Source of the DNA: Henricia sp. BOLD:AAB3569
Lineage: Eukaryota; Echinodermata; Asteroidea; Spinulosida; Echinasteridae
DNA length: 64,000 nucleotides
Reading direction: 5' to 3'
Assembly: GCA_037783545.1 (NCBI GenBank)
Contig: JBBELK010000946.1
Location: 1-64,000 of the forward strand
Part shown: piece by piece, positions 1,515-51,300 of the stretch
Numbering within the stretch: position 1 is the stretch's first letter
How the letters are laid out: each line of letters opens with the position of its first letter
The notes under the pieces: generated by a model
Told to the model about the DNA's origin: nothing
What the model saw: the letters and a program-made list of their open reading frames with translations, nothing else
Database searches by the model: none
Translations under genes and position numbers: made by a program

Positions 1515-1644
1515 ACCGGAGGACACGCCTCAATGTTGCAAGCTTGCTGCCGAATGCTTGGTTTCCTAAATCCATCACACAGGTTTGGGTCTTGGGTTCT
1601 GAAAGTCTGCCACTCGACGCAGTCTATCCTGGTGTGTTTAATAC
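1515..1644 (-). CDS. Exon 10: remainder of TSR2
   Basis: This 130 nt exon completes Gly725 and encodes residues 726-767, ending phase 2. It holds IDCVEW, then NLCDGFRKPSIRQQACNIEA, then CPP. This is the second half of a TSR in the ADAMTSL4/THSD4 style, where the partner repeat ends CNxxPCP. The acceptor is tctctctag at 1645. The preferred donor is gtaagt at 1514; a donor three codon-steps earlier would be weaker. The next exon is not visible in the remaining 1514 bases and must lie outside the window. Confidence 0.9.
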
Positions 1645-12300: not shown

Positions 12301-15300
12301 TAGTTCTGGGCACCTCATCTGCATAGTTCTGAGCACCTCATCTGCATAGTTCTGGGCACCTCATCTGCATAGTTCTGAGCACCTCATCTGCATAGTTCTG
12401 AGCACCTCATCTGCATGGTTCTGGGCACCTCATCTGCATGGTTTTGGGCACCTCATCTGCATGGTTTTGGGCACCTCATCTGCATGGTTTTTGGCACCTC
12501 ATCTACATGGTTTTGGGCACCTCATCTGCATAGTTCTGGGCACCTCATCTGCATGGTTCTGGGCACCTCATCTGCATGGTTTTGGGCACCTCATCTGCAT
12601 GGTTTTGGGCACCTCATCTGCATAGTTCTGAGCACCTCATCTGCATGGTTCTGGGCACCTCATCTGCATGGTTTTGGGCACCTCATCTGCATAGTTCTGG
12701 GCACCTCATCTACATGGTTTTGGGCACCTCATCTGCATGGTTTTGGGCACCTCATCTGCATAGTTCTGAGCACCTCATCTGCATAGTTCTGGGCACCTCA
12801 TCTGCATAGTTCTGAGCACCTCATCTGCATAGTTCTGAGCACCTCATCTGCATAGTTCTGGGCACCTCATCTGCATGGTTTTGGGCACCTCATCTGCATG
12901 GTTTTGGGCACCTCATCTGCATAGTTCTGGGCACCTCATCTGCATAGTTCTGAGCACCTCATCTGCATGGTTTTGGGCACCTCATCTGCATAGTTCTGGG
13001 CACCTCATCTGCATAGTTCTGAGCACCTCATCTGCATGGTTTTGGGCACCTCATCTGCATAGTTCTGGGCACCTCATCTGCATGGTTTTTGGCACTTTTC
13101 CATTGATGCACAATTTTTTAATGTTTGCGACGATTGCGCATGTTATGTTTAAATACAAAACGCGCTACGTGCGCATGCGAACCAAACCGACCTAAACCGG
13201 TTACGGTGGTGTGCCCATTCAATAACACACTTAATGGTTATCTAGCTTATAATGAAAATGTGTGATCACTTCTCATAGAGGTGTGTGTTATTTCTGCCGT
13301 ATGGGTACAAACTCAGAATGAGTTAAAGTACAGCTGCTAATTTTGGGCCTTTCACAATACACAGTACATGTAGCATCACCAAGAGTTCGTTGGAGAGGGC
13401 ATTTTCTGACTATGTGGTCGACATTGGCGCATTTTTACAACCCCACTCTCATTACCCAGTTGCCTTAGTCATATTTACTACGTAAAAAGTGTACAAATTT
13501 TTATTTTTTTTTAAATTGTGAAAATGAGATCATCCATCATACACTTGCAGATTTCTTTTAAAAAAACGAATGTCCCTAATATTAGACCTTTATCACGGCG
13601 CGTCCATCTTTGTCTTGTTCTCCATAGTACGTGTTGGATACGAGCATTGCGATAGCGCGTGGAATCACTGTCCATGCTGCGCGCTCTCTTGATCGCACAA
13701 CACCTGTGCCATTGTGATGCACACAATGATCAATTTCAAAACGGTACAAAACTATTTTTTTCTGCAAGCCTCACTTTGGTTACGTTCATTTTAATAGGAG
13801 AAAAAGGAAGATGGCCGCGCCGTGATAAAGGTCGATCTTTGTTATGTGGAGATTTATTTGAGTACAGTCAAACCTTGTTAATAAGAAATCCTTGTATTAT
13901 CAGGATTGAAAACAAAGAAGAAAAATGAAATAGAACACGTCTACAAAGCAGAATGTTATATTAATAAAAGTGCTCTTAATTTTCAAGGTTCGCCTGTATA
14001 CCGTGGGAAAACAAAAGAAAAAGCTTGAAACTTTTACAATTATGTAAAAAAACAAAAAATAACTGAATTCTTACCTCCTGCACAGCTTGCGGAGCATTCA
14101 GTCATTCCCATGTCGATCCAGCCATATCTAGCTCTATCATCACCACCACCGTGGGGACGATCGTATATGCCTAAGTCTCTGGAGACAGTACTGGACTCAT
14201 CAGTCTCTTGACGATGGGACTCAATGGGGTCAATCTCCAAGAAGGGGTTCTCGTCTTGATGGGTGTTCTGGGTGTTAGGGTAGCGGTTGGGGTACTGATT
14301 GGGGTACGGATTATTGGGGTATGGGTTGGGATAAGGTCTTTGATTGGCGTTGGGGTAAGGGTTTCGATTCGGGATGGGATTTTGATTGGGATAGGTATTA
14401 CGATTTGGGTAAGGATTAGCGTTGGGATTAGGACTTGGGTAGGGATTAGGGCGATTTGGATTTGGATTACGTACGGGGTTTTGATTGGGGTTATGTGTTT
14501 GGTATCTGTTTGGATTAACTGATTGCGGGTTGTATGGGACGTACCCACGACCAGGGTTTGCTTGAGGCGCTGGACCAGTCCCTGTACCCCTCTCTGGGTT
14601 AGGTTTATCCCCTTGGGGTGGTGGGTACCTAGAATCCTGACTCTGGGGTGGATAAGACTGACCCTGGGGTGGATAAGACTGATCCTGGGGTACATATTGA
14701 GTGTTTGTCTGATCCCTAGCGAGGGTCTGTTGGTAAACCGATTCAGGCAACTGTCTAGCTTGCGTCTCCACGCCTCTTGAAGCGGCCACTGGATAAGTTG
14801 GACTCCCGTCTGCTTGCGGTGTCTCCTCAGCAAGATTCCCACCCTTCTCTGTATCGCTTTGACCAATGTCCTTCTGATCATCACCTTGCTGACCTCTCTG
14901 GTGACCTGTATGACCTCTATCCTGTTGACCTGTGTTGACCTCTTGCTGGGGGTCACCCTGAGGCTGCGGATTGGTGGAATCAGCCCCTGCGCTGTGCCCC
15001 GATTGGCTCGGTTTTTGTTGCAGACCAGCGACCGAATCTTGTGAGCTACTTAAGCTCGTACTGCTGTCCTGAGGTAATGCATCTTGTGCTACACCAGGGT
15101 CCTGCCCTCGAGATCCCACTGGTTTGTTTTTAGACACCGTGGAAGGAAAAACAGGTGCTTGCTGGCCGGCACTCAGGAAAGTACTCAGTGAAACACCACC
15201 ACTGACCTAGGGGACAAAAACAGAAGGGGAGAAAGTAGAGCGTGCTCAGGTGTGACTTGAACACATGACCTCCTGCATACTAGGCAGCCGTTTTAACTAC

Positions 15301-18300
15301 TCGACCACCAATCTGGCTGGCCTTGAGTAGCTGGTTCGAATGATCTAGCAAAAGGTACCACAACTGATGAGGGTAGTAGGATTAATACCAGTTGCGCCCT
15401 TGAGCAAGGCGCTTGCCCTAATTACTCCATCCTTCAGATGGGATGTAAAGACATTCGTCCAGTGTTGTGTAATACACTTAAAAGATCTCTGAGCATTAAT
15501 TTGTAAAGAGAAGGGAATTCTCCTGAGTGTCTCTAACTTGGCTGCCTGATGCACCACCTGCCTACATGTAGATGTACCTCTATGTTTAGGCAGTTCCTGA
15601 GAGTTGTAAAGGGGCATTTTCATGGTGTAACTGACGTTACATGTAACGTCAGTTACCGTTAAAATGCATAATGAGAGCTACATGTAGCATACCTTAGGAT
15701 GCAGGATATGTTGTGTCATAGGATGACACCCGTCATGTAGCTTGCTGGGTCAAAGTAACTAAGGTTGCATGTAATATCGCAAACTGCGAAAATGCCTTAA
15801 GTGTTGTCTGCAGACATAGACTGTGCTGTAAGCACTACATGTACATGTAGCTATTACACTACTCACAATAAGTTAGGGATATTTATTGGTATGTTGTCAA
15901 TTTTGGAATTTGTTTTTAAATGACTGTTTTCATCTATTCCTGTGACAAGGTATGTCTGTCATGCAGATACAATTGTCTTATCATATACAAAATCATTCAA
16001 GCCGAATAAAATATCTGCGTACACCCCACAATATCCCTAACTTATTGTGCATAGTGTACTAGTCACATATGCCATATATAGAACAAAAAAGTAATTGTTG
16101 GAAACACAAACCAGCTGACATATTCATCACGGACATAAAGCGTTCAAAATTTCACGGATCCTTCTCAATTCCGACCAGATTTCCCTCCGACCAGCCAACC
16201 TAGGGGAAGCAGCCCTAACCATGACAAAGTTCCCTCAACAGCTAATCTGATAATCAGTCTTTCCTCTTGATGACCTTTTAACCTACATCTAAAGACTGCT
16301 TGTCTTACAGATGGGTTTAAAGGGCTTTGATACAAAGATAGGAGACTAAGCTTGGGATTTCCCTGAAGCTGAAATAGGTTGTTTATCCTGGTAATAAAAA
16401 TGGACAAGGACAATACCGTACGTGCATCCCCACTGGTATACAGAGCACACCCATTGAAACCATCCATATCCGACCGTGCAAAATGAGTCCAATGTCGGTG
16501 GTCTGGGCAGAGTTTTCGCAACCATGACTGAAAATCAGTGAAGGTTCCAGTTCACCGCCTGGACAAAAAACTTGGCTGCCCGGACAAAAATAATAAATTT
16601 TCTCCTAAGAAAACACTTCAGGAGTAAGACCGAGTCATTTCAAAATTAGGTGTAAAGTCACAAAACGTGATTTGCTGATGTCATTATCGTTCACTCACAC
16701 TGAACTGTGCATATCAAACGCATCGGCGACCCAATCTGCGGCCGATCACAGCCATTACAGCTGCATGCATCTGAACAGCGCCCTTACGCGGCAAACGGAT
16801 TCACTAAGTTGGTCAGTGTTTGCCACATGAGGGCGCTGCTCAGTGCGCCCAAACAAGATTTTGACTAGTGGAGAACACTAAGGCCCATTACAATATGAAA
16901 ATACAGTGGAAATTCCTGGCGGTACCCGAAGATTGCAGGCTGTACTCAGGTGCTGCCGAAACTGTCCATTTTATTTTTCTCATTTTAATGAGCCTCCCCC
17001 ACACCCTGTTCGTTTTAATGGCTCCAGACTGTATTCACTTACAGTGACAAGCTAACCAAATGGATAAACTACCTGGTCAGTGGAAGCAGGTGGATCTTGT
17101 CGGATGTTGACTTGAGGCCTCCCAGGGGCGGCGGGAGGTGTCTCCTCCTCCTCCACATTGGGTAGAGGGACAGAGTACTCATAGGCTATGCCGGGATTCG
17201 TCTGTTGCTTTATAAGCTGTTACAAACAAGTTTAAATAAAAAAATTAGAACATTAAAACTACAACGGCAAGGCCGCCATGGCTCGCTGCTTCCTAAAATT
17301 AAAGGAGCGTGTCCAAATCACATTTTTGACCGCCCCATTTTTCCCCATGGGTGTCGATATTTTGATACCATGTGTGTCATATTTTTCTCATTATCATTTT
17401 GAAATTTTGCATTATCAATCTGTATATTTTCAAGGATATCGTAAAAGAAATACCTGATGTTTTGTAAACTAATTTATCTGGTTCCATAAAGCAGTGCAGT
17501 AATTACACTAACCTTTTTGCTTCCACATCCAAATTGGAGATTGCAAATATCCTGTTTTCTTCCCATGGATAGTATTTTGGGGAGGTATTTTATATGATGG
17601 TTAGGTTAAAACGAAATTTCTTTTCTGGAAAAATCTGAACACGCTTCTTTAATATTCCTATGACTTATTCCTGATAAAATAACCCTAACCCCACACCCAA
17701 TCACCCGCACCCCAACCCCCCACCCTTTTGCTCCCACACCAACCCCCATCTCATAACCCTGCGTCCCATTACCCTGTATCTCAACCCGGCACCCCCGTCA
17801 TCCTCTTTCCCAACCCCCACCCCCTCTCTCCAAACGGCCCCCACCTCACAATACAGCAACCAGTCGCAATTTACAAGTCCAACTCACAATCAAGTTGAGA
17901 TCTTCGGTCGTCGGTCCTGTGGCAAGAAGCTGTTCCCCAACTCCCGTTCTCCCAGGCAATCTCTTATAAATGAAGAACGTTCCGGCGATTGAGAAGTTTC
18001 CAGGACGGTCAATCTTCCAGTCCATATTGATGTATTTGTTTCCATTGGTCCCTTCAAGGGCTGTGGTGTAACGATGAGGAAAAAAGAATATATAAGATGG
18101 TCAAATTAAAAACAAAAATGAAATGTGCACAGGGAAAAGCTGAAATGCCGAACTCATTTTACTGGCCTTTAAAAGGATTTTTAAGGTTAGTTTCTCTATT
18201 TTAGGGATGAGAATTTACTGTTAATTCAGAAACCGGTTTAACCGTTTATACCTCTGCACAAGAGAAATCTTACCTAGGTAATTTCTGCTGTTGGTGATTT

Positions 18301-21300
18301 CCGTAATATTGATAAACATGGCTCCTGTTGGTATTGTAATCATTTTGCGGTAGCCATGTCCCAAATTGCTGGTGAAAACTCCCGACATAATCTCGCACTG
18401 CGTGTTGCTTCCACCGCATACCCCGCATTTGTCCAACTTGAGACCTGAACCGAGAATGCCATCGCAGCCAATGGTCTGCACAAAGTAAAAAGGATTGTAA
18501 ATGCCGTTAAGTATGGTATATTAATGATCCGAACCCAGAGCCAGAAAGTGGTTAAGGGGAATGGACTAAACCTACACTCAGTACTAGCAAATACAGTTGA
18601 AGTCAGAAGTATAAATACATGTACACCACTACCATCATCACCCAAACCATTGCAAGGTGTAAAAGCTATGCTTTTAAGTACTGCATGCACGTTAGGAATT
18701 CCACAAAATCAAGAATTTAGTAAAGACTGTTACAAAGCATACCAGTAGGCCTAAGCACACCAGTTTTAACACTTGCATACAGTTGTATTTATACTTCTGA
18801 CTTCAACTGTACATGTATACAGCAGATAGAGAGACTAATGCTGGGACAGCATTCTGGCACCAAGTTCAGTACCAAAAGCCTCCATTTTGATTGACAGTAA
18901 AACCTAAAATGTGGTTAACACATTCATTCATCTTGTTCAATCACTCAGAGGCAATTCACACTGACCACAAGCCACAAATCCATACTGTATTCACTTTGTG
19001 GTTTTGTGGCCAGATGAACATCACCACAAGATACAGGCAATGCCACACAGGCCATGATGCAGGGGAGGGGCAGATGAGGGGCAGGGGAAAGTCGGACTCA
19101 AGGGGCAGGAGGGAGAGGAAGGGGGAAGATGAGGAGAACAGGGAAGAGAATTAAAAGAGCATGTCCACATCACACTTTTGACATCTCTCCATTTTCCCAC
19201 GAGTATTGAGATTTTGATACCATATCAATTTTCAAAAACCCACTGATATTTTGACTTATCTGGTTTCATAAAGCAGTGCAGTAATCACACTAACCTTTTG
19301 CTTCCACATCCAAATTGGAGATTGCAAATTTCCTGTTTTCTTCCCATGGATAATATATTTTGAGAGCTATTTTATATGATTGTTAGGCTAAAACGAAATC
19401 CAATTTTTGAACACGCAGGGGCAGGGAAGGGGGAAGAGAAGGGGAAAGGGGGAGGGAAGGGAAGGGAAAAGGAAACAGGGAAGGGGAAAGGGGCACGGAA
19501 GGGGGGAAAGGCAGGCAGTGAGGCAAGGGCAAGGGGAGGGGGGAGGTAGTGGGGGAAGAAGGCATCCCCTTTCTTCAATCTCTCACTGCCACTGGACACG
19601 AGGATTTTCTCTATTAATCAGAAAGTAGTAAAATCTGGTGTGCAAGCTGTAACCGGCAAGCATTAAGAGCTGTAAAAGCTGTAAATCTCTCTATGGATAA
19701 AACGTGACCTTTCATTGTGACCTGTGGATTTCCGGATAAAAAGGATACGAGGGCTAAGGAAGACCAGGCTATTCTAGGAGATTACAATAACTCCAAGGCG
19801 GTCTTAGGATACATGTAGGGTCACTTCTTCCTTATGGCAACAGTACATACATCTTAGTCTTCTTTAGTAACGAGGGTACAATAATGGGGGCACAGTAAAG
19901 ACTTGGGCGACTCCCCAAGAAATTGAGATTGTACGCCCCTATTTGTATTGTTTTGAAAGGGTTTACACAAAATGATTTTCAACTCATAAGCCAATATTGT
20001 ATGTGTATGTACATATTTGTACATATATTTTTTTTGCGAAATTAGTACAAATTTTAAAAACAGACACTGGAAAAGATACCATACATGTTCGCCAGTGGAG
20101 ACTCTGTGCACTAAGTCTATGGAGCATGACATAAAAATCCCAAGTGTTTTTGGATATTTTCTCATCGCTAAAGTCATGTTTCCGAACCAAATTTACCCTT
20201 TGTGGGGCATTATCATGTCATACCGGTAGTTACATGTAGAATTAGTGGCGAACCTGTATGGTATTTATACTGTTTTGAAATTGTGCAGTTGCTACCGGTT
20301 TAATGGTGTGATCAAAGTGATGCACATTTTTCACATATTTTGTTTAATTTTAACTTTCATGGAAGTAGATTTAACTTCAAAATTCGCAAAAAACAGAACC
20401 TTTAAGTACAAATGTCCACTTACATTGTATACAGCAGAATATTTGCTTGAGAAATCTGGCTTTTCAGCTAAGAAGAAACATGACTGAACATGTGACTGTT
20501 CTGACCAATCAGACTATGTTATCACAAAGTCATAACAAGAACATTTAATGATCAAGACATCAATTTGTATTTATTGGATAAGTCATGTGATGTATTACAA
20601 GCAAACCAACATTTGCAGAAGTTGTCAACTTTACTCATACATGTATACCCATGCTTGTACATGTACCTACTCTAACATTCACAAAAGTAAAGTGTGTTTT
20701 GTAATTTGAATAAAGTCCCCTGTGGCTCTCTTTCTGAAATAATAATAACAAAATTCTGCTTTTTACACGTTTGACAATTACAGAGTTCTCCGGGGATAAA
20801 ATGTGACAATGTGACAAGCAGAATAGAAAACTCTCAAAGGGACCAGGGAATAAATTTGTTTGTCACTTTTTCATTCAAAACGTTCCATTTGAATGACTCG
20901 TCAAAAGGAAATATAAAGCAATGGATGTACATGTACATGTATCTAGGTTAGAAGGGGAGGTACTTTGCTGCACTCAATGTGGAATATTCTGTAGTTATAA
21001 TTCTCAACAATGGCAAAATGAAACAGAACCTACTCGAATGATCTTCCTATCTGGGGAAAAAATAAAATATGTTTGTATTCTAAAGGGATGTGGCATTTTA
21101 ACCAGTTAACGCGGGGAATATTTCAAACATTGCTGTACGCGTAGACGCGGGTTTATTTTTAGTTGAAACAAGGAGGGCGGAAAACAAATAAACACATTAA
21201 CCATGTGCAGTGAAGTATTGTTGTTATTTAAATGTCGATGCACCGTCATTGTACACCATACTGTCGCTTAATAAACTTTTTTTGGCCATTTATCTCGGAA

Positions 21301-30300: not shown

Positions 30301-33300
30301 GAATGGCTCAGCATCTGAACAAGGCTACCGGTGCTGATTTGAAATTTGTCCATTGCGGTACTCCGTAAAAAAAGTAATATCGTTGTTGCCTATTCAACCC
30401 ACTGCACCAGCAAAAAAAACAACATGAAAATGCTTCTTCAAACACAGTTTCCTAAAGTAGTGAGAAATTAGGAACTAATTGCTGTAGGTACACTCTAAAA
30501 ACAGATTGGTTAAAAAAACTACCAATCTAATTGGTTGACCCCATATTGGTTGTTTCCAACCAATATATTGGTTAACTAGTGACCAATACGTTGGTTGTTC
30601 AGCAACCAATGGCATTGGTTGGGTAATAAACCAATCCTTTAACCAATACATTGGTCAATCCTGACCAATATGTTGGTTGTCCAGCAACCAATCACATTGG
30701 TTGAGCAATAAACCAATCCTTTAACCAATACATTGGTCAATTGTGACCAATATGTTGGTTGTCCAACAACCAATCACATTGGTTGAGTAATAAACCAATC
30801 CTTTAACCAATACATTGGTCAATTCTGACCAATATGTTGGTTGTCCAGCAACCAATGGCATTGGTTGAGTAATAAACCAATCCTTTAACCAATACATTGG
30901 TCAATTCTGACCAATATGTTGGTTGTCCAACAACCAATCACATTGGTTGAGTAATAAACCAATCCTTTAACCAATACATTGGTCAATAACGACCAATATG
31001 TTGGTTGTCCAGCAACCAGTCACATTGGTTGAGTAATAAACCAATCCTTTAACCAATACATTGGTCAATAACGACCAATATGTTGGTTGTCCAGCAACCA
31101 GTCACATTGGTTAAGTAATAAACCAATCCTTTAACCAATACATTGGTCAATACGACCAATGTGTTGGCTGTCCAGCAACCAATCAAATTGGTTGAGCGAT
31201 AAATCAATCCTTTAACCAATATATTAGTGACCAATATATTGGTTGTTGAGCAATGATGAGCAATTTGTTTAATACATAGGCGAAATGACGGTGACCAATT
31301 AATGTTGGTTATCCGGCAGTCAATCATTGTTTTAGTCATTAACCATTGATTTAAACTTTTGTGATTGGTTGTCAAACAACCAGTCACATTATTCACAATT
31401 TGTGACCAACTAGGCTAGATTCATTATCAGATATCAAGCAGCCTTTCAGCAATTAACCAATCTCCAATGGTTGACATTAGAATTGTGGCACAATCACATT
31501 GGTTCAGATATTAACCATCGTTATATTGGTAATTGGTTCACACATGAGCCAATCTTCAATTGGTTTCAACCAATACCTAATTGGTGCAGAGCTCTGTTAG
31601 GCTGAGTGTCCGGTAACCAATCACATTGGTTCAACTATCAACCAATCGTTGTTGGTTGCAAGTAGGACCTATTCCACTATTTTGGGGGAGGTCACTGGTG
31701 CAAGATGATCCATTCCAAAGAGAAGTAGAACATAATTGTATATTCAAACTTTGTCATGCAATATCAAGGAATTGAAATTATTGAAATTTCAGTCCTATTA
31801 TTTTGTCAAAGATTTTAAGCATTATAGCCTTTATTTACTAATTTTTTAATGCATTTGGAATGACCCTGTATGAAAGTGGAATTACCATGAGCCACGAGGA
31901 GCGCTTCATGCTGTGGTCAGCATTTTTACTGCATGCAGTAGTTTCAAACGTATAGTCAAACTGTTACCTTCGATCCTCTACAATCCGCTGCTTTATTGCA
32001 TCCGGCCGTTGTCAGTTTCCTCTGCTTTTCACCCGCTTTTCAGGTAGGATATATGTTTACATTTTATTTTGTATCAACTTGGACAAAAGTATAGTTATTG
32101 TATAAATTATCTGTGTATCTTCCGAATAGTGTGGTCTAAATTTCACCGTTTTGTAGAGGTTTTGAAATGAGAGCACGAAACAGATAGAATAATGGGAGAA
32201 GCTTTTGGTATATTCATCCCACATAAATGAATATTTGAGAAAGATAAGCGATGTTAAGTTGTAATTTAGTGAGTTTTTACTTTGAGGACAGTTCTGACTT
32301 TTTCAAAGTTGCATGGCATGTACAAAGTACATGTAATTACATTATAATATGGGACGTTCACCCCGTACGCACTTTGTGTTTGTGTTTCTTCCTCCATGGT
32401 ATATTCCTCCATGGTTAGCATGGGTATATGTACAGTGGTCAGTCCAATCCCCTCCAAGGACGGCCACCGTGTGCATGCTGTGTGGAGGCTCATGACCAGT
32501 TCTTGGCATGGGGTCCTGGTTAGCCTTGAATTCTATAGCAGTGCAAACTGCAGTATTTGTGTATCAACTTCCACAGTAATGTTATGAGACAGTTAACACT
32601 TTCTTCCCTGCATATTTTAGCGTGTTTGTGTTGTTGTTGTTCATTTCATATTTATTGCGTATCTCAGATTGACGTGGACTTCGATCTCTTTTCGGGGAAC
32701 AGGCTGACAATCGAGGTACATGTACCAGATCATGGACTTCCATGGGCTAGACTGCTGTAATGACACAGCTGTGCGTCTTGTAGCAGATTTGAATAAACCA
32801 CATGGAACAGAATGATGATGCAGAAGAGGATATGGATGCCGACTACTCCCTATTCCCAGGTTAGTTTTGCTCTCTTTATTAAGCTTACTTTTTTGCACAG
32901 TATTTTTTTAAAAATGACAGAGGTGGTTCGATTTTTAAAAATAATGTTGACATTCACCGTGCACCTTCGGTAGGTGACCATCCTAGCGCCAGTGGATTCA
33001 TAAGAATTGTTCAGAGTTGACATTACACAGAAAAGACTGATTTAGAAGCCCAGGTTGTATGTTTTATATTATACTGGAACTTCTCAGGAGAGGGGCCTCT
33101 CGAGAGGTACTACAGCAGTGCACTTGCCAGACATTGCTTTAAGGAAATTCGCCATTTATTTTGGTGTGACCAATATCTAGTGATATGTTATTAATGCACT
33201 CGTATTTATTATTCCTTGATTGCTTCTCTGCAGAGGACATTATACTACATGTGTAACACCAAGAGCAGAGTCTACCTCGAAGGAAAAAAGGTGGAAGCTA

Positions 33301-36300
33301 GCCAAGCATAGTGGAAAAACGGAGAGCCTTCATTGCACTGAAGGTAATTGGTACCATTGAAGATACTTTGGTTTTTGAGGTTTTGGAAACAAAATGTATG
33401 CGACATGTTAAATGCCGCCAGTTAGCTTAGACAGGGTTGGCAGTCACACACATCAATCTGCATGGAAAACTTGCGGTAGGATACTGTATCTGATAGTCCA
33501 GATGTAAGGAAAAGAGGACCCAATTATAGCAGTTAATGCTTTGCAAGTTTATGATATTTTACATTGTGTGAGCCTGCTGACTAAAAACCTACACCTATGT
33601 CAACAGTTTAACAATTCCGAGTTTCAAATTTGCTAACATATATGAACCTTGCTTTTCAGCGTGGAGCCGACTTTGCTGCCTATATCCAGGTGAGGGACGA
33701 GGAATGCAGAAATCGGGAAGTGACTAGGCAGCTACAGGTCCTCATTCTTAGGAAACTCAATGCTGGATGCCAAGGAATTATTTGTTTGTATTAAACAGTC
33801 AGGTTATCTATAAAGTGAATTATCTTGTGAAGGCAAGAAAAGCCATCATCATGTTTGCCTATTACTATTTCTTAAGGAACAATAACGTTATCAGGATACA
33901 ACAAATTAATATAAAAAAACAAAGTGACCCAATAACGTTTGTTTACAAACACAGCTAGCGCCAATCAAATATGCATGTAACAGCAGTGACGCTCCAGACG
34001 CTTGCGTCTTTTTAAAAATTGTAATATTAAATTAAATGTCCACTTCATGCAGTACAGAGATAACAAATTAATAATCTTTTCAACTCTGCAGCTGTACTGT
34101 ATAGTATGTGAATCCATGCTCGGTGTCCATTTTAAATGTATATGCAGCGATATTCTTTAAAATAAAACATGTACAGGATGAACCCCAGCAATTATGTTGG
34201 TCTATATTAAATCATGTTGTTCTGTAAACAAATTAAACCAAACCACTTGCCTGGCAACTTTAACCAATAATATTGGTCATTCCAGCCATTATAATTGGTT
34301 AATGTTGACAATTTTTTGGTCTTTTGAAGCAATATATTTGGTTATCTTTAACAAATATATTGGTTGTCTTGACCAATATGAAATGGTTAGTATTCTAACC
34401 AATATGTATTGGCTGGGAATTTAACCAATCAAGATTGGTTATGGATTGGTTAAAACGTTAACCGATCTAGATTGGTTAAATAAACAACCAAGATATGTTG
34501 GTTAATATTTTAACCAATATGGATTGGTTAAATAAACAACCAAGACATGTTGGTTAATATTCCAACCAATATGGATTGGTTAAATAAACAACCAAGACAT
34601 GTTGGTTAATATTCTAACCAATATGGATTGGTTAAATAAACAACCAAGACATGTTGGTTAATATTCTAACCAATATGGATTGGTTAAATAAACAACCAAG
34701 ACATGTTGGTTAATATTCCAACCAATATGGATTGGTCAACTAAACAACCAAGACTTGTTGGTTAGTATTCTAACCAATATGGATTGGTTAAATAAACAAC
34801 CAAGAGATGTTGGTTAGTATTCTAACCAATATGGATTGGTTAAAAAAGTAAACCATATCAGATTGGTTATTTTAACCAATAGATTGGTTGGACACATATC
34901 TACCAACCACATTGGTTGAATTTGACCAATATATTGGTTAATTCAACCAATCTGTTTTTAGAGTGTAGACTCAAATTCTTGAAATTACATCTACATTATA
35001 CTTATCAGCCACTTAATGTTCATTGTCCTAAGTTCCCCTTTAAATAGTGGAAGATACACAAAGAAGCATTGCTTTTTAAATTGCCTACAGACACATTAAT
35101 TTTATCTATCCTCAAATCAAAGTATTTGGAGTAATTGCAGAATACCCCGCAACTCGAAAATAACCTTAGTGTGCATGCTGTGTTGTTCATCGACTGGTTC
35201 TCGGACCGTACTTCCCCTAAATAACACAATCCTCCGACTCTACCAAATTCTTCTCAGACCGGGAGTTGTGGGTAATTCTGTAATTGTGCCAAGTATTTTC
35301 CAGCTTACCGTTTGTGGTGTATTGCTTGTTCGTTGACGGTGTGCTTGTGGCTGCGGATAACGCCGGAAGGCCGACACTTCAACCATCCACAAACACATCA
35401 GACTTAAGACAGGAATCGCAAGGTGCATCCACTTGGTCATGTCGATACATTTACATAAAAACACTCCAATCTCTCAAATTAGTCACTAAATCGCAGCACG
35501 ATACATGTACATGTAGGCCAACTTCACAGAAGATTCTAAAGACAAGTTTGGCAAAACCTGAAGTCCAGTTTGATATTGTTCCACTTTTTTATGAGACCCT
35601 CTCAGGTCCCTGCAGGGGGTCCCCGTCCAGCCCTGTCACTCACTCCAAGGTCCAAGTACAGGTGTACATGTACCACCCACGGGATTAATTTGACTGGAAC
35701 ACCTACTGATGAATTACTATAGCATCCAACATTCCTATGCTATGGTGCCCAGCTTGTGACGAAGCGATGCTTCCAATAAAAAAAATCCACAGTCGCTTAC
35801 TGAGTAGCAGTCAGCGAATAAAGCGGTGAAGATTACAATTTGACAAAGCTAATACAATCAGAGCAGTTCTATGCTGAACTTTGAAACTCCGATGATGGTG
35901 TGACACACACAGAGCCTACTTATCCTTCACACAGCATGTACCTGAACTATTGACTGCAAAGTTCCACTATGTAATCTGCACTGCACAAGTTTAATATCCA
36001 CACTTCCTCGTGCCAACAGAAATCACTCCCATGCACTTCAAGCTCATGTTTATTCATGACTCACATCACCACCCGCCAATAGGAAGCCAAGGAAGTGCCC
36101 GAGGAATTTTGATTGGAGGTGAGAAGTTTCACAGCCAACCAATGGGGAAGGTGTAGGTGGATAAAAGGTCAAAGTTTTTGTAGAATTGTTTAAGCCTCCT
36201 CATATCACAAGAGTTTATCAGGAATTGTCCATGTTTCTATGGATTATTTTGGCACTTTAGGGATATTTTATGAGGTCATATCATATTTCTGTGAAAAAGG

Positions 36301-39300
36301 CAGGTTATTGTTAAGTTTCTTGTTAACAGTGGATTCAATAGCTGAACAACAGACCGCTCTGGGTTGATACGCAAATTTTCAACACCGCGTTCAACCCCGA
36401 ATCGTTTAACACTTGTTTCATCTCGCCCCCCGAGACGAACAGTGAAGATTCACACTTGTGCAACGCCAACCCGGGGCGAGCGATAATCGAGCGTTGCGCA
36501 TATATGCGTGGGTGCTGTATCCTGTCATGATCTTTGCACCAACAAGCGGAAAAATCTCAACCCGGGGCGAACTCAACCCTGCTCGTTTCACACTACCGTT
36601 TTCAACCCGGGGCGAGCGTTTCAACCCGGGCCGAAACATTTCAACCCTGGTCCCGAGCAGGGTCGAGTTCAACCCGGGTTGAAATCAATCTCGGGGTTGA
36701 ATCGTCAGTTTTTTCAAAAAGTCCTTATGAGGAGGAAAGTCTGATCCTTTATTTTCTTGAGCAGTGTACCAGTAGGTACATGTAGTGTCACAAACTGGCT
36801 ACACATGTCTTCCAGTAGATTGAGAGGGTGGGCCAGGCAGATTACTGCTGTCAACAGTGTAATGCAAGGCATAACCTTAGGGTGAGGAAGCTATGTTTAG
36901 AGGACAAGCCCTCAGGGATAAGCTCAAATTGAGGGGTGAGTTAAAGGCACAGGCTCGTCAGCAATGCGCGCGCCAAATTCGTGCCACTAAATACGCAGCT
37001 GACGAGCCTGTGCCTTTAAAGGCAAAGTAAGCTAAAAACATAGTCTTCAAGTGGTGAGATTTAAAGTCAGATTACATGATTGGAAAACTTTTAAAAACAG
37101 GAACAACAGTTACATTACTAAAGAATAATGTTGATAAACTGCCTTGTAGAAATTTCAGCCACATAGATGCAGTAATACTTCAGAAAACGGTTTTTGTGTG
37201 TGAATGAATGCTAAAAAAGTTGCCTGCAGACAACTTTAAAATTTTTTTTTTTTTTAAAAGCTAGCACTTTTAGTTGGCAAGTTCTTCCACAAAGGTACTA
37301 TTTTAGATGGGAATAAAATCATGTGATGTTTGTTACCATTGCTATAAACAGTTTTAATTGATCACGTTCAAATAACGTCACTTCCTACAAATCGCCACGT
37401 GCATCAGAATTTTAAGCATATTATTTTGTGACGCGCATCAGCTGCGCCGTATTTCTAACAAATTTAGAGCAACACACGTGCGTGTTTGAAACATGTTACA
37501 ACGTGTGCGTGCGCGTACTTGATAGCGTTTAATACGCGGTAGCATTTTTTCCTACGAAGATGGCGTCTGTGAACGTGATCAATTGGTTTTTCCTTGTCAA
37601 CTTGTGAAGTAACATTTTGGGTAAACTACATGTACCAATGATGTATTGGGGCTTTAGGCAGTGATGTGCCTTGCCTGATTGCTTTCAGTTTCATACAAGT
37701 CCAAGTGAGCACTCAAGGTATTTGAGATCAAAGTCAAGTGCACATAAGAACCATGAGCTCCTCACACTGATAACAGGGGCTTTCTCCAGTAGGGATGGGA
37801 ATTTACGGTTAATTCAGAAACCGGTTAACAATTTGGCTGACACTAAAGATTGTTGCTGGTATTTATAGATCTGCATTTGCAATGCACACAATGCCCCAAA
37901 AATAAACGTTGAACCTTTATTTAGTAAAAAAATATTTTAATTTCATGAAGTCATTACAAATAACTTTCTGAAAACTATTGTAAATTCTTTAAAAATGGGT
38001 TTCGTTTAAACGTTCGACAAAACCAGTTTTTCGTTATTTCTTTTGGTTAAATGGTTAACCGGTTAAACGTCCCATCCCTATTCTCCAGTCTAAAGCCCAT
38101 TTTGGTAATAGGGATTAATCAAATTAATATTGTCCAACAAATGCTTTGAAAACTTGTGTATTACCAGAGCGTGTCCAGGTCACATTTTTAACGCCCCGAT
38201 TTTCCCCATGGGTGTTGAGATTTTGATACCATATCTTTTGTCATTTGTTTTCATTACCATTTTCAATCCTATATTTTCAAGGATATCGTCAACAAACCAC
38301 CGATGTTTTATAAACTAATTTATCCATAAAGCAGTGCAGTAATTACACCAACCTTTTTGCTTCCACATCCAAATTGCAAATTTCCTGTTTTCTTCCCATT
38401 GGATAGTATTTTGAGGAGGTGTTTTATGTAATTGTTAGGTTAAAATGAAATTCATTTTTTTGGGAAAAATCTGAACACGCTCCTTTAATACCACATTTAC
38501 AAACTGCTACCCCTTTGAGAGAAGAGTTTAGCTTATCTGCTAGAATTTGCAGAGTGAGCAAATTTGGATGACAAATTGAACCGTCTAAAATAACTTTCTG
38601 GCATATTCGGTGTCATTTCCAATCTGAAAATCCTGAGACATGTACCACTTTTTCTCATTCTTCAGAGCTACAAGGTGCTTCTTATCCTCAACTGACAATT
38701 TACATGCCAAGGGGAACACACTACAGTACAAACTCATACAGTTCATTGATGATTCTTAGTAATTTGATGGGTTACAGCCACCAGATTTTTCTTTACTTCT
38801 AGGTTGGCATACAAATGCCTGTTTTTCTCTCCATGATGTCTTTTTATATTTAATCAACAAATCCCTAATGATTTAAGAACACAGAAGCCTCCAGAGAAAA
38901 CCTCACCCATGGGCAATGCCAGAAATGGGCAATAACTCCTTCCAAGGGAGAAGGGTCACTTACATGTACTTCCCACTTTAAGCAGCTTGACAAACTTTCT
39001 TATAGAACATGCATTTTTCTTCAATTTTATTTATTTATTTTGTTACCCTCATCCATTTGTTTTTCAAGTTTCCTCTTTAATGAGAGAGAGGGTGAAGTCT
39101 CCCTTTCCCTACTCCACCCCTAGTGACATCAGTTACCTCATTAAGATAGATTTTAATAGTAGGGGCCTACATGTATTTCTTAATCTTGTCTCAGTCAAGC
39201 CTAGCCGAGCCGAGCCATTCCAAAAAGTTTCAACCAATCTGCCATTGAGTATACATGTAGGTCACTGTACACAGCGACAAAAGCATGTGGTGTCTAACTT

Positions 39301-42300: not shown

Positions 42301-45300
42301 AGAATAAACTTGCCCTTTAAAAATATATGCTTGAATTCTGGCGGACTGTTCTTGACACTAGTAACTTGTTCTCCATTGGTGTGTGATCAGGTGGTGTGTG
42401 ATCCTGTTCCGAGTGCATTGTTCTCGGGTCGTGTTCCCATCATTTGGGCGCAAGAAACTGAATTTTCCTCTCAGTGCAGTTGTTTGAACTCAGTACCAGC
42501 TGAGTATTATTAGCTAACACCCTGCAATGAACTTCTCCATCTGACGTTATCAATCAGACATGCCTAGCCATTGCAAGAGTGTCAAACAAACAAATCACCT
42601 TACACATAAAAGGGGGTTAACAAAAGGCTGGATCAATTTACAGAAACAGGTGGCCTAATTTGCCACAGTCAATTGACCAGATTGTAAGTTGGATTTCTTG
42701 TAAACCTCCTGATGGGATCAGAAAAGACAGATGATATTCATGAATAATTTCATTTTAGCTTTGAGAAATAAGCTGCTCAGCAGGTCATTTACGAGGCCTA
42801 CATTTCATGAAGTTGGTGTTGTGGTACTTTCCTTGAAGGAATTGCCATAAGAAGCACCAAAAACTTGTCATAAATAGAAACTTTCTAATTTCAAAAGTTG
42901 CCAGGTTTGCACAGAATTATACTTAGAATTATTTGTTTTTAACTTTATTAAATTAGTTAGAGACACAAAACTTTATAGTCTCACTCTGAAATTTGGATCA
43001 AACAAACTTGGTTAATTAAACAAATTCTGTTTTAACTCAAATCAAAAATATATTCCATCAAATGAAGAACAGTCTCCTATGCTCAACTTAAAACTCGACT
43101 TACTCATAAAACTCACTTTTGAAACCCAATTTCATTGAGTTGTCTGTTTAGGATTAAAAAAATGCTTAGCACAAAAATGTTTAGCTTTACAAGTTAAAAC
43201 ATCATGCCATCAGTGTTACTTTTTCATTGGTATTCTACTAGTACATGTATGTACCAATTTGTGCTAAGCACATATTTGGTTGACTTGGTTACTGAAATTG
43301 GCCACCAAATTTGTCTGGGGAGCAAGCTACACCAATTATAATTCAAGTTTACCTGGATCCTTGCTCAGAACGTCAATAACTGCGTAGGACCTACTGCAAA
43401 TTAACTCCTACCAAGAATGTGGCACATACAATTACCGGCATATCTAAACAAATTCAGGAATAGCAGGTGAGCGTACTGCATGCCCTGCATTCTTGGAAGA
43501 CAAAGTTCTCCAGTTTAATACTAGACTTGACACACTGACATCTCATGCAGGTTTTCAATTTAGCCACAGCATCTTGTAGACTATACATACAGGTGCCATC
43601 CAAAGTCAACATTTTCACAGGTCTGCAAAACGTAGGAAGGGGGGGGGGGGGGGTGGAGGTGGGGAGTTGTGGCGGGAGGTGCACAGTGGCGTAACTAGGG
43701 TGAAACATCTGAGGGGGCACCTGGGGGTGCACACAATTATCCAGGGGGGCACTAACCCTCTAAAATGTTGTAAAATAAAAAAAAAATACATATTTTCGAA
43801 TTTCCGGGTCAGGTTTGGTGACCTTGATGCATCTCAAAAAAGACAGAACTTGTTCTTGTCTTTCACTGATGGAGATCTTCGGATCAAAATGTCCGACTCC
43901 TAAAATCAGAAATAGTACTAATAGCTTCTGTTAAACAACACAATAATGAACTGTATTCCTTTAGGCTGACTTACCTTGCACATACCATCCACACATATTT
44001 CCGTTGTTGACGATTTTCGGCATGGCGTACCATCGACCACTTTATCGGCAAGTTTGGCAAAGAAATGTACCCCAACACCTTTGCAGTTCAGCTCACATAA
44101 ATTAGGCTCTGCAAACACAAAGAAAAACGTATATTTTCTAATTGCTAAAATCATGTTTCCTAACCAAATTTACACTTTCTGTGGCAATTATCATGTTATA
44201 TTAGGGAGAATAAGTGGCAAAGGTGTACGGTATTTATACCACTTTGAGTTCTGGTTAAAATCTGGTTTGAAGTTTTGTACAGAGACGTGTATAAGAACTT
44301 TTACGTTTGCAGTAAGAATTGAGAAGTTACCCATTAATGTTTTTCCTTAAAATAACTAATCAAGCATTAGTAAGTGCAGATTTAAGGGAAACTTCAAAAT
44401 TTAAAAATGGGGAAAAAAATTAAATTTTCTAAGGAAATAATGTCTTCCTTAAAATGACTTATTTAGCCATCAGTTCCCAAAACACAGCTCAATAGAGTAA
44501 ACAATCAATAAAAGAAAGCAGTTTGAAGTTTGTCAAAAAGAGTAACGTCAGGCCTAATTTCTCAAATGAACTCCCATTTTAAGATTTGGGTTAACCATGC
44601 ACGGACACCCACAGGATTTGCCTTTTTATGATCCACATGTACATGTATTTATTAGTTTGATGATTAAAAACACAAAATTATGAGGAAAAAATGTCATGAT
44701 TTTGCTAAGGAAAAACTTGTCTCATAGAGGTTTAGAGCGTGGTAATCTTTCCAAAGTATTAAACACAAACGTTGATCATTCATCACCTGTTCATTCAATC
44801 ATTGATCCAGTGGTAGGCTAATGTCCGGAAACTGGGCATCCACAATAATTTAAAGTGTCACCATTCGACTCAACATGTTTACTTAAAATGTATAAATTAA
44901 ACAACTTGAACATATCTTTGAAACATCTAACCATAAAAACTCCGTTTCCTGTATTCATACAACCATCATCATCACGTCAAGAAGTTTGTTTTCCTTACAT
45001 TTTCAGACCTGTTCGAGCATGTGTACGTCAGTGTTGAAGTCGGCAGAGGGCGCCCTTACAGTTTTCCAGTCAGCTGGTATCTTTGGTCAGCTCAGCTGGG
45101 CTCACTGTGAACATCACGGTCCGTCATTTCCAGCCGATGTTGCAATCGATTTTTTTGTTATTTCCAGTTTAAAAAAAAAGAAACATGCCCAATCTCCAAA
45201 TATCCAATTTGCGGCCATCTGTGTTTAATAATTCCGAGCTTTTGTGCCTTAGAGTTCTTACCTTTAACCCTTCTGAACACATAACTTCCGTTTGGGCGAT

Positions 45301-48300
45301 CGAGTCAGCCGCATATTAATTAACCCTTCATTAATTAACCCTTTTATCGCATGCTTATGGCAACTTTTTTTGTTACTCGCTACCCACCTCTTTGTATTGT
45401 TTTCCACTGGTAGAGTTTTCCCATAAACGGTACGTTGTTGTGGCTTTCGCACTGCTCTTGTCTAAAGTCCTTGTTCGTTGGACATAACTTTGGGAGGAAA
45501 AATAGAAGATTATAAAAAGTGCACGCTCGGTGCCGACGCAGATGAAACGTAAAGAAAATAAAACAGGATGTTTTAGTATTGGTTTTAATGCAGTAATTAA
45601 AAAATATTTTAACCAATTATTACTTTGGGCTTACCTCTGAATTGCACAGTTTGTATTGCTTGTAGAGACCCACGCAATGCGTGCTTTCTCTTAATTTTCC
45701 CCTGCGATAAAACCAGATGAAGAAAAAAAAATAGACATTTGTAAATGGCGTCTTTTAGGCCTATAGGCTACAGATACATGTACAATCTAACAGATTAGTT
45801 ATAGTTTGTACTGGAGGCATTTTGTAACTTTAGTAATACGTCAGATACATGTTTTCGGTTATGGTCACGAAAACAAACCCGACAACGCTCTACTGATGAG
45901 GCGAAAGAAGATCGGGAGCTGAGAGACATGCGAGGTGGCAAGGGCGCCCTCGGTCAGCTCAAGACGTCCAGACATTGCAGCCAATCTCGCGATCATGGGA
46001 TTAAGACATCGATGATAAATGAATACTCTTCCTTTGAGGGCCGTTATTAATAGGCTCCACGTGTTGCCCACTGACCAGATAGCAGTTATCATGGTTACCC
46101 AGCGGCTCCTAGTACACCCACCCAGTTTCCGCCTCTCATCCCGGCCCGTTGTTCTTAGCCGTTCAGAACAGTTTAAAATATAATCCCACTTCACGCCCTG
46201 AACTTGAACAAAACTTTCGACCAGTCGGGATACCTTTAGGCAAAATCGGTGGGACAAATCCAAGATAGGATTTAAAAGCGGGGCATTTAATTAAAACAGC
46301 AATATTCTCATTGGCAACGAGATAATTGGTTACTAAACAAACGCATATTGATGAAATAAAATGTCGGTGTCTGGTTTAACAAGGCAATTTTTACTTAAAT
46401 TTGACCCATTTAAAGAGCTAAAAAAAACTATTTCTAACATTCTCTTTCTCCTCTAAATTCAGAGTACTGGTTAGCCTTTTTTATGATTGTGATTTTTAAA
46501 TGATCACTAAAAAAAATACGGTATTTTTATTTGCTGTGGCCTTCAATACAACGTAGTCCTCGGCGCGGACTGCACTGAAGCACGCACCAATTTGAGCTTA
46601 TCGCAAATTGGTGGCGTGCTTCAGCATGCGCACTTTAGAGCAAGTTCGATCAAGCAACTATGAGCAAGTTCGGGTGGGCGACTATAGTTAACTAGACTAA
46701 CCTACCCCCGGGGCTTGGTTCCTCTAGTCAGACTAGCTAGTCAAACGACGCAGCGTTCGGGTGACATAAAGCAAGTTCGGGCGGGCGAATATAGTTAACT
46801 AGACTAACCATATTCGATCTAGATGTCACTCGAACGCTGCGTCGTTTGACTAACTAGTCTGACTTGAGGAACCAAGCCCCGGGGGTAGGTTAGTCTAGTT
46901 AACTATATAGTCGCCCGCACTGCCCATATCGACTATGGTTAAGTCTAGTCGCCCACCCGAACTTGCTCTTATAGTTCACTATAGTCGACTAGAGTCCCTT
47001 GAACAACGGAAATTACTAGTTGCTTGATCGAACTTGGCCTTAGTAGCTCAAACGTGACGTAGACAATGAACAAGTACCGGTTTGTTTGCTGCCACCACGT
47101 GTTTTAAAAGTCTTCCATTGCTACACTATGCTAAACTCATTCACGGGTGGTTCCCCAGCGGCGAAAATGTGTCAAGTTTTCCAATTATTTCCCATTTCCT
47201 ATTCGACATCCGCGATTTTGTTTCAGCCACAAGTGAGTTCCTCAGAATAACAAACACCTAAAGATTTACTTCTAAAGCAACCTGCATTGTTTCAAACATT
47301 GTTTTATTAGCGTTTTATTGTTGTCGCCTCAAAACGGAATTATTGGCTGGCAAAGTAAACTAGTTGCATCGCGGCTTTTGGTGGAACTGCAAAATGGCAT
47401 CAATGCCCATTACTTGTCATCGCTTCAGTTATCGCCTCAAATTGTCGCCTTGTGGAGTTTGAAAAAAACCACCGATAAATTGTTTTTCTCTCTCAAAGCA
47501 AAAAGTTTTGAGCCGATAACTGGAACGATAGTTTGAGCGATTTCAGCAATAACTTATTTTTATCACCTCTGGAAGTTATCGTATAGGCCTATAGACCGTA
47601 TCGAATAGCCGCCATCTTGTACGGCAACCTTTTGACATTTAATTTGGTCAATAATGCGTGCAACCATGTTTATCCCCATGGGACAAATAATTTAACTGCC
47701 CTACAAGATGACAGCTGTTCGATATGGTCTATAATGGGGTTTAGTCTTTAAAGTTGAATACAAAATAACTTTTCCGTCCACTCCCTGATCGTATATGGGC
47801 TATATGATTTATACATTGAGCTATGATTCGGCACGATCGAGACGTTATTCTGACAGTGACCCCACCCCGACTTAGGCCTACCAGATCAAAGTAGGGTGGG
47901 TCTGGGTTCATCGAAAAGGGCAGTCGCCGTCAGACGGCAAGAGGGATCATGCTCTAGGATCAGTGGGGTTGAGATGGCTGAAATTGGCGGGCCATAGGAA
48001 TGCTGCAGAGGACTGATAAACGGCGCGACTCCATTCGATTACCGATTACGCATACATGCACTCGGACAGACCAGGGATTACGCATGCTCTCGGACTAGAC
48101 CAGGGAAAGGGGAAAATGGTGAAAGGTCAGTGGGGATGGGCGGGGCATATAATGTCGTCAAGGATTAGGGTGTAATGCATTTCTTGAAAGGTATGCACAT
48201 TAACGTTTCATAATTGCGTATTTTAGCTCCCAAACCCCCTCTCATTCAAAAGCTATATGATCAGCAAGCCGCGGCCGCGATGCACCCGCTCTGAGCAGTG

Positions 48301-51300
48301 CCCTCGCGCGGTAACAGTGACCAGCCCTATGAACAGATTGCCCCCACGTACATATTTCTTGCACAAGCTTCCCCCCCCCCCCCCCCCCCCCAACATGCTT
48401 AACCCTGCACTGGTATAGTCAATTTTATTTGTCAAATTGAATGACCTGAGTAAATGCAATAATTATTATCTTCAACGATATCACTGGAATGGGCAGACAG
48501 CGCCATTGAGCTAACAACACAAACAAACGAACCAAACAAGAAACGCAGTATACATACAGCTTCAGCTTTGTACCTGATGGCACCCGATATCATCACTTTG
48601 CGCGCAATACACCATATGTCTATATGTGAGTAGTGTGTAAGGCCTTAATGAAACAATATATTGTTCGTTTATGCAAATTTATGCTAACTATAAGCATTAC
48701 ATCGTGCATATAATTTGCATAAATAGAATGCCTCACTACTTTTATATATGAACTTCAAAAAGTCAGCTGAAAGTGCAAGTGAAGCAGCCAATGCAACACG
48801 CAAAAGGCCTGACCGACGCTCCGTGCCAACAACCGAGTTGACAACCGCTCCAAACAGCATGTACTAGATACATCAACACTTGAAATACTTTTTTTCATAT
48901 AATTGATACCACTTAAAATACCCCAACATCACAATCCGTGCGTGTGAAGATAGTTTCATCTCAACCGCTCCTGCACCGGAATGTATAGGCCTACTGTACT
49001 GATGCAGTTCGAGAGGGGAATGTGATGCCACGTCTGTGCTTGCTATTAAAGGTCCGTTGTATTATTGCAATGACCCAACATTTTACTTGAGTTGACAAGA
49101 AAAACGTATTCAAAGTGTTGATAACAATGGTAACAAACACCACATGAATTTTTGCTTTCCAAAATGGCAGATTTGTGTCAACAATTAACACGAAAAACTT
49201 GCATGAATTTTAAAGGTTTTCTTAAACACTGCTGCATCTATAGTTTACCAACATTTTCTTCAGGTATGTAATGATGTTGCTAACTCCAGGAATGCACAAA
49301 AAAAGATTAATTTGCGAATGATACAATGATCTTCAAAGTCGCCATTGCTATCATCAACGAGCTAACGGAATAGATCACGTTGATTTTCCCCGTCATATTC
49401 ACCAACCTCGTTTCTTACCACGTGATCTCTCTCTTGTCCTAATCTCGATTCTCCACCTCGTTCACCGTTTTAACCATTCTCTGTATGTTACCGCTTTGTT
49501 TTAACCAATTACATGACTGAATCCAATCGCTACCTGTTGCCCCTCCCCCCATCTGGGCCCCCTGCTCTTTACCCCTCCCCTCTGCTCCTCATAAGACACG
49601 CCCTATACTATGAGCTGCTACCCATCCTCCACACGTCCTTGAGCACGCAGACCTTGAGCCCCAGTTTGCCCTCCCCTCTGCTGCTCTTTACCCCTCCCCT
49701 CTGCTCCTCATAAGACACGCCCTATACTATGAGCCGCTACCCCTCCTCCACACGTCCTACAACACTTAGACCGTGAGCCCCAGTTGCTCCTCCCCCTCCC
49801 CTGCTCCTTACCCATCCCCTCTGCTCCTCATAAGACACGCCCTACGCTGAGCCGCCACCCCTCCTCCACACGTTCTTGAGCATGCAGACCACGAGCCCCA
49901 GTTGGCCCAGTAGGAGAGAACCGGCAGTCTGTTTAATCCTCGTCTCTGTAAGAGGGAAAAAAAATGAAAGGAAAGAAGACATCGTGAGTTAAAGTCCTTC
50001 AGAATTTGACATTTATACCGAACTGGTCGCTGGTTGCGTTTATCTCTCGTTTTCAAAATCCAGACACTTTTTTCATTTTAGGGATTGTTCGTTTATTATA
50101 CAATGTGAACTTGAAATGAACACTGGCCGGACGTTACCCACAATTACTTGCAATTATTGCGAGCAACTGATGACTCAACAGAAATGAATAAAACTCGCTT
50201 GGGAGCTCCACCAACTATAGTCCGCGTCTGTGAATGAATTTCTCTCTACTAACAGGAAAAATAAACACTGCCACAGATTTCGATCTGTGGGTCATAGCCA
50301 GCCTTTCTTTAAATTGAAAGACTATAGATTAACGGGAAGTTTATATTGAAGGGTACATAGGAGAAATAGCAGCTCCCATGAAACATACAAGCTAGACGTT
50401 CCTGTGACTGCTGTATCGAGGGATAGCAGTTAAAGGCACAGGCTCGTCAGCAATGCGCGCACGCCAAATTCGCGCCACGAAATACGCAGCTTCATGCCTT
50501 TGCTATGGAGCTGCGTATTTCGTGGCACGAATTTGGCGCGCGCGCATTGCTGACGAGCCTGTGCCTTCGGAGTTGGCCGCTTACTCTCCAATGTAAATGT
50601 TGTAAATGTTTTTGTATATGTCCATGAACGAAAATAAATCCTGCAATTAATAAACCCCAATAGGTATGTGGGCATAGGGCCACAACTGTTCGTTTTGACA
50701 CATTCATGTCTAAATGCAACAGGTGCACTAACAGACCACTAACTATTTCTCCGAAGTACAATTTACTGGGACACACTGAATATACAAATATATATACGAC
50801 GGAGGGGGTATTTAATACCGCATGGTGATTGAGTCCCAACGCGAAACATTAAATTAGAAAGAAAAACATTCTCAGCGGTAACCGTTTAGCTGCTTAGGCT
50901 CTGTCCAGCAGGGGATTAACACTCAAGCTTTTTTGTTAGTTTTACCCATTATCACACTTTCCCTGTTCCAAGCGGTATAATCGACATTTTTATCCCAATG
51001 CATGCCGAGCGGATTCCTCAGTCTGTTAAGGTTTTGCTCCCAATTTTCAAAAGCACGCGAACATTTCACACTTTCCGGCCGTAACACAATGCCTCTCCAA
51101 ACCAAAAACCACAGTACTTATCCAAACAGATCATAATTCAATAAAAGAATTCAATTTTAAAAACAGCGGTTACACTGAAACTTTAATTCGTTCACACGTG
51201 ACGAGGTCGACCTTTTAATATTGAAAACTGGACATGTTTTGCGCGGTATCACACCATTTAGGCTACCAAAATATGGGCTAGCTCTTCGAGAAAGATTTGA

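Follow-up and report, generated by a model that had tools for sequence, protein, structure and literature searches.

Does an echinoderm gene of the ADAMTSL6/THSD4 kind hold, inside one of its own introns, a second first exon from which a shorter secreted product could be made? This question is raised by the stretch of DNA analyzed here, which we refer to as the window (64,000 nucleotides, positions 1 to 64000 of contig C946; the genome searched comprises 740.7 Mb on 2104 contigs). In the 25.5-kb intron that separates exons 5 and 6 of the gene, the minus strand reads from 35440 to 35309 MTKWMHLAIPVLSLMCLWMVEVSA followed by FRRYPQPQAHRQRTSNTPQT, and then GTAAGC in phase 0; the whole translation is MTKWMHLAIPVLSLMCLWMVEVSAFRRYPQPQAHRQRTSNTPQT. 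A first-pass annotation of this DNA had proposed a 44-codon exon with a phase-0 gtaagc donor at this place, and its coordinates, strand, length and donor proved to be as described. The in-frame join to exon 6 that it had postulated is likewise borne out, exon 6 being entered in phase 0 at 18475. With a weight-matrix score, cleavage of the signal peptide is predicted after VSA (score 6.2), while the probable leader of the long form at 57469-57383 scores 6.8 and two human leaders that were typed in as controls score 10.0 and 7.3. The scores from the signal-peptide matrix and the donor model are good for ranking only. The sequence thus lends good support to a further signal-peptide exon with an in-frame join to exon 6, and we give a probability of about 0.72 to the reading that 35440-35309 is an alternative first exon of the ADAMTSL6/THSD4-like gene.

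The gene model consists of ten exons that join in frame, with AG/GT borders and without a stop. Pfam recognizes TSP_1 (1.3e-5), ADAMTS_CR_3 (2.5e-12), ADAMTS_spacer1 (1.5e-25) and TSP1_ADAMTS (1e-8) in the joined model, and the leader exon directly precedes TSR1, with no protease domain in the model. The window begins with the contig, but on contig C325, where the locus is present a second time, a PLAC domain lies on the same strand (340487-340576), about 32 kb beyond exon 6; by its position we take it to be the end of the gene. Read through exon 10, the gene thus has the features of the ADAMTSL family, namely TSR1, the cysteine-rich module, the spacer, TSP1_ADAMTS and, by position, PLAC. A human THSD4 sequence that was typed in matches the exons in order in five stretches with 43-66% identity, plus one stretch with 25% identity that runs through an intron. 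Together with the Pfam domains and the PLAC domain on C325, this match supports the earlier assignment of the gene as ADAMTSL6/THSD4-like, which we consider likely but not proven since THSD4 was the one vertebrate ADAMTSL in this comparison. Tandem arrays were also seen in the host gene region. A 119-bp array with 2.9 copies (49559-49908) starts inside the TSR1 exon and repeats the 3' half of that exon and its donor region with decay, the extra copies having broken frames (e.g. WGSRSACSRTCGGWVAAH), and a 23-bp unit repeated 44 times at 12086-13095 is open in several frames.

Features of the host gene and of the candidate first exon. Positions refer to the window.
Feature	Position	Strand	Description
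Presumed 5' UTR or promoter region, candidate	35441..36040	-	Low CpG; 9 ATGs ahead of the start
Candidate alternative first coding exon	35309..35440	-	44 codons with a signal peptide; donor gtaagc in phase 0
Exon 1 of the long form, probable	57383..57469	-	Signal peptide MAFQTISILLVFACMTSSGALDSQNKYRQ, phase-0 donor
Exon 2	49812..49945	-	Thrombospondin repeat 1 (TSR1), PF00090 in the joined model
Exon 3	45635..45701	-	End of TSR1 (CVGLYKQYKLCNSE)
Exon 4	45388..45487	-	Start of the cysteine-rich module
Exon 5	43975..44108	-	Cysteine-rich module, last residues ICVDGMCK, phase-0 donor gtaagt
Exon 6	18274..18475	-	End of the cysteine-rich module and start of the spacer; phase-0 acceptor common to the long and the proposed short form
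Exon 7	17888..18060	-	Spacer
Exon 8	17073..17216	-	End of the spacer
Exon 9	14075..15206	-	Long Pro/Asn/Gln-rich linker and start of TSR2
Exon 10	1515..1644	-	Remainder of TSR2 (together with the end of exon 9 a TSP1_ADAMTS match, 1e-8); the contig starts at this point

In the arrangement that we propose, transcription would start inside intron 5 and yield a transcript with 35440-35309 as its first coding exon. This exon would supply the signal peptide, to be cleaved after VSA, and a basic, cysteine-free stub of 20 residues, and its donor at 35309 would join the exon 6 acceptor at 18475 in phase 0. TSR1 and the first six cysteines of the cysteine-rich module would be missing from the secreted product, which would retain the module's last four cysteines together with the spacer, the linker, TSR2 and anything further down to the PLAC domain. 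We infer the splice to 18475, the secretion and any separate role of the short form from the sequence. The frames fit in that the donor of exon 5 and the acceptor of exon 6 are both in phase 0, exon 6 starting directly after TTTGTGCAG, and a fit of phase by itself has a one-in-three chance. Against the Pfam cysteine-rich profile of 115 positions the long form matches positions 27-115, whereas the short form covers only positions 88-115 with 17.0 bits, below the cut-off of 21. The short product had been described as lacking TSR1 and half of the cysteine-rich module; the former would indeed be absent, but more than half of the module would be lost.

The place at which the module would be cut may not be arbitrary. 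On an alignment with ADAMTS13, provided that its residue numbers are placed correctly, six disulfide cysteines fall before the exon 5/6 border. These form the disulfides Cys450-487, 483-522 and 508-527 according to a structure paper from 2019 (PMC6706451). By this alignment, the exon 5/6 border would also be a disulfide border, the six upstream cysteines pairing among themselves, so that an even number of cysteines, four, would remain in the short form, and these would presumably pair with one another. A solved chain of ADAMTS5 (9rwm) begins 16 residues before the matching GCDG; it has two cysteines more than the short form would and is therefore only an approximate precedent for cutting the module. 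All five other ADAMTS/ADAMTSL loci that were fetched (3 genes, two of them as copy pairs) have, as judged by eye, a phase-0 acceptor two codons before GCD, which makes the exon 5/6 border look like an old intron.

Contig C325 provides a second copy of the locus, with 95% identity over the exon region and collinear with the window across the stretches fetched. We take it to be the other haplotype, a recent duplicate being the alternative. The candidate exon is kept there (386552-386683), with ATG, frame and donor intact and with 43 of the 44 residues identical. The two copies differ at 3 of its 132 bases, in one synonymous and one replacement codon, and the exon is accordingly intact but without visible constraint. 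The same comparison gave 3 synonymous and no replacement differences for exon 6, no differences of either kind for exon 5, and 6 synonymous and 11 replacement differences for the linker exon (exon 9). In the 5' flank (35441-36020) the copies have 5 mismatches in 571 aligned bases (0.9%, with a median of 2.4% over 100 bins), which we do not count as proof of constraint because 23% of the bins are as low or lower. A search of the genome with the 44 residues of the candidate exon returned only the window and C325, and thus no paralogous copy. At the nearest paralog (C478/C1002) the homologous intron measures only about 0.8 and 0.7 kb, and no signal exon was found in it by scan.

About 4.5 kb just 3' of the exon (30500-35013) have no match of more than 250 bases to C325, where the counterpart measures about 1.2 kb (L030:2010-3227), a large structural difference beside the candidate exon. 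A dispersed repeat (35114-35294) starts about 15 bases after its donor. Querying the genome with 1.2 kb of this DNA brought up 130 candidates, of which 40 were scored; all but two of the latter, 38, fell in this repeat, the remaining two being the window and C325. Intron 5 also holds tandem arrays at 30558-31225 (82 bp, 8.1 copies) and 34459-34844 (52 bp, 7.4 copies), which are rich in CCAAT/ATTGG motifs. Elsewhere in the assembly, COX1 occurs once on contig C2104 and three times on contig C955 (L037, L038 and L039; G000:C955) with a spacing of exactly 16,221 bases; the triple occurrence is probably an artefact of head-to-tail mitochondrial assembly, with the spacing as the unit length. Mitochondrial COX1 reads as an open frame under both code 9 and code 5, and AAA read as Asn (code 9) fits positions that are conserved as Asn in animals, in line with, though no proof of, the echinoderm origin assumed in the first-pass annotation.

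The region upstream of the candidate exon is less telling. Within 600 bases upstream of the start there are 9 ATGs, one of which opens an overlapping out-of-frame ORF just before the ATG. The observed/expected ratio of CpG amounts to 0.35-0.54 in the three 500-base bins covering 35251-36250 (window median 0.595), and climbs further upstream to 0.79 and then to 1.11 in bin 36251-36750 (90th percentile 1.07). Near exon 1 the ratio is 1.38, above that of bin 36251-36750. CpG was therefore dropped as a promoter sign, being low at the candidate exon and over 800 bases upstream, unlike near exon 1. A scan for sigma-70-type promoters, of which the consensus is bacterial, returned 3 against 3.1 in shuffled sequences and was likewise rejected. 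The idea of an internal promoter for a short isoform, with which this locus had been introduced, thus holds for a signal-peptide exon that can be joined to exon 6 in frame, but the promoter signs, with low CpG and 9 upstream ATGs, do not speak for it. A transcription start or internal promoter at the candidate exon is a prediction from sequence.

These observations have to be weighed against the possibility that the exon is a product of chance, that is, an unexpressed intronic ORF that resembles a signal exon with a good donor. The 9 upstream ATGs and the low CpG fit with such an ORF, as do the lack of measurable constraint between the copies and of a paralogous exon. We therefore determined how often such exons occur, counting those with a signal-peptide score of at least 6.1, a hydrophobicity of at least 2.0 and a donor score of at least 9.3. 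On the minus strand of the window 2 of 14 candidates pass, both in phase 0; one is the candidate exon (35440-35309), and the other (57469-57383), which could precede the TSR1 exon in phase 0, is probably the gene's real leader. Of the 8 plus-strand candidates 1 passes, in phase 2, and at 25 other loci of the genome (212,250 strand-bases) none of 39 does, which amounts to a single passing exon, in phase 2, in a real background of 276,250 strand-bases. Markov sequences of order 1, 2 and 3 (2.5 Mb each) gave 0, 2 and 1 hits, with 0, 2 and 0 in phase 0, so that 0-0.02 phase-0 exons are expected per 25.5-kb intron. The thresholds were chosen post hoc, about the candidate exon's own values, and this flatters the chance figure. 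The same scan may also miss real leaders, as it detected no strong one within 10 kb upstream of the paralog C478/C1002, where one may exist. In view of the upstream ATGs and the absent constraint, chance keeps some weight, but its low expectation in both the Markov sequences and the real background makes it an improbable explanation.

The main rival to an alternative first exon is a separate nested gene for a small secreted protein or peptide, on the same strand in intron 5, with its acceptor somewhere between 35308 and 18476. The basic stub (FRRYPQPQAHRQR) might be the first part of a peptide precursor, and the link of 35309 to 18475 is drawn from phase and position only; short exons of some nested gene are moreover possible in this interval. 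On the other hand, the interval from 35308 to 18476 holds 100 ORFs with a length of 40 aa or more, and for 10 of them Pfam gave nothing above cut-off (these 10 were picked among the longer ones, and some longer ORFs, in a tandem repeat and elsewhere, were left out). The best matches below cut-off were DUF5845 (16.4 bits versus 28.5) and PAP2_C (13.8 versus 27). Six strong acceptors lead into phase-0 frames with no fewer than 30 codons, and among these frames four are gapped between the copies (one of them with 6 gap positions, possibly whole codons), one is intact (36 codons) and one is only partly aligned. A nested gene seems unlikely to us. Inclusion in the long form as a cassette exon, between exons 5 and 6, would be compatible with the phase 0 of both neighbouring junctions. 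However, a TGA that lies in frame 12 codons before the ATG closes the frame of the candidate exon (in agreement with an open frame of 77 codons), and a signal peptide buried in this way would make little sense. In addition, no acceptor with at least 70% pyrimidines is present in the 600 bases upstream, save for a cut-off fragment at the edge of that stretch, and because no acceptor with a good pyrimidine tract precedes the ATG we regard a cassette exon as very unlikely. An alternative first exon therefore remains the preferred reading of 35440-35309.

What would such an exon amount to? We take the mammalian ADAMTSL6-beta to be defined by an alternative first exon of this type, as its abstract reportedly has it. 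Its own signal peptide, a frame that fits the downstream exon and a common C-terminal part are all found here, at the level of sequence only. According to an abstract from 2010, ADAMTSL6 alpha and beta reportedly differ in their N-terminal sequences and have the C-terminal part in common. The human short form presumably has 658 residues, of which 634 follow the matching border in the sequence typed in, which would leave a unique start of 24 residues at the same border. The long and short vertebrate forms invoked by the first-pass annotation do exist in mammals, where a review describes ADAMTSL6 alpha (145 kDa) and beta (95 kDa), which are located in the matrix and both promote the formation of fibrillin-1 fibrils (PMC10850197). 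The same source states that in mammals ADAMTSL6 proteins contribute to the assembly of fibrillin microfibrils and keep TGF-beta in check, and it connects variants of the gene with aortic aneurysm. A description of the vertebrate short-form junction was not found in the parts of the literature at hand (including PMC8667168, PMC10499240, PMC3252277, PMC4303202, PMC11645155 and PMC11905124), and no title among the literature matches listed concerns echinoderm ADAMTSL isoforms.

Outside the vertebrates, Drosophila loh (lonely heart) had already pointed to control by two products. This gene is described as probably orthologous to ADAMTSL6, and its long transcript, A, and shorter transcript, C, appear at different times in development (PMC3708815). 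In that paper, ADAMTSL6 is presented as the only family member then known to have two transcriptional isoforms; a later review mentions a short variant of ADAMTSL1 (PMC10850197). Given that two-product genes are known from mammals and the fly, the exon described here is a candidate echinoderm member of a known long/short ADAMTSL6 kind, and control by two products may plausibly be older than the vertebrates. More tentatively, a second promoter in the intron between the two disulfide blocks of the cysteine-rich module might be a deep bilaterian feature that vertebrates, echinoderms and flies have retained, or evolved anew more than once, because the old phase-0 border allows a restart without orphan cysteines; we consider this possible but doubtful. 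Should the reading of 35440-35309 as an alternative first exon be true, the long/short layout in an echinoderm would extend two-product control across the deuterostomes, and would offer a test of whether the border in the cysteine-rich module fixes the restart points of such genes.

Three known systems can be set beside the echinoderm gene. Mammalian THSD4 is one gene with a long and a short form, and the same layout is predicted from sequence for the echinoderm gene. LTBP1 and LTBP4, which are associated with microfibrils, each occur in a long and a short version with different N termini, as is proposed here, but belong to another protein family (PMC6943813). The fly gene loh and the echinoderm gene are both ADAMTSL6-like with a long and a short product, that of the echinoderm being predicted, and the role of the fly LohC is called elusive in PMC3708815.
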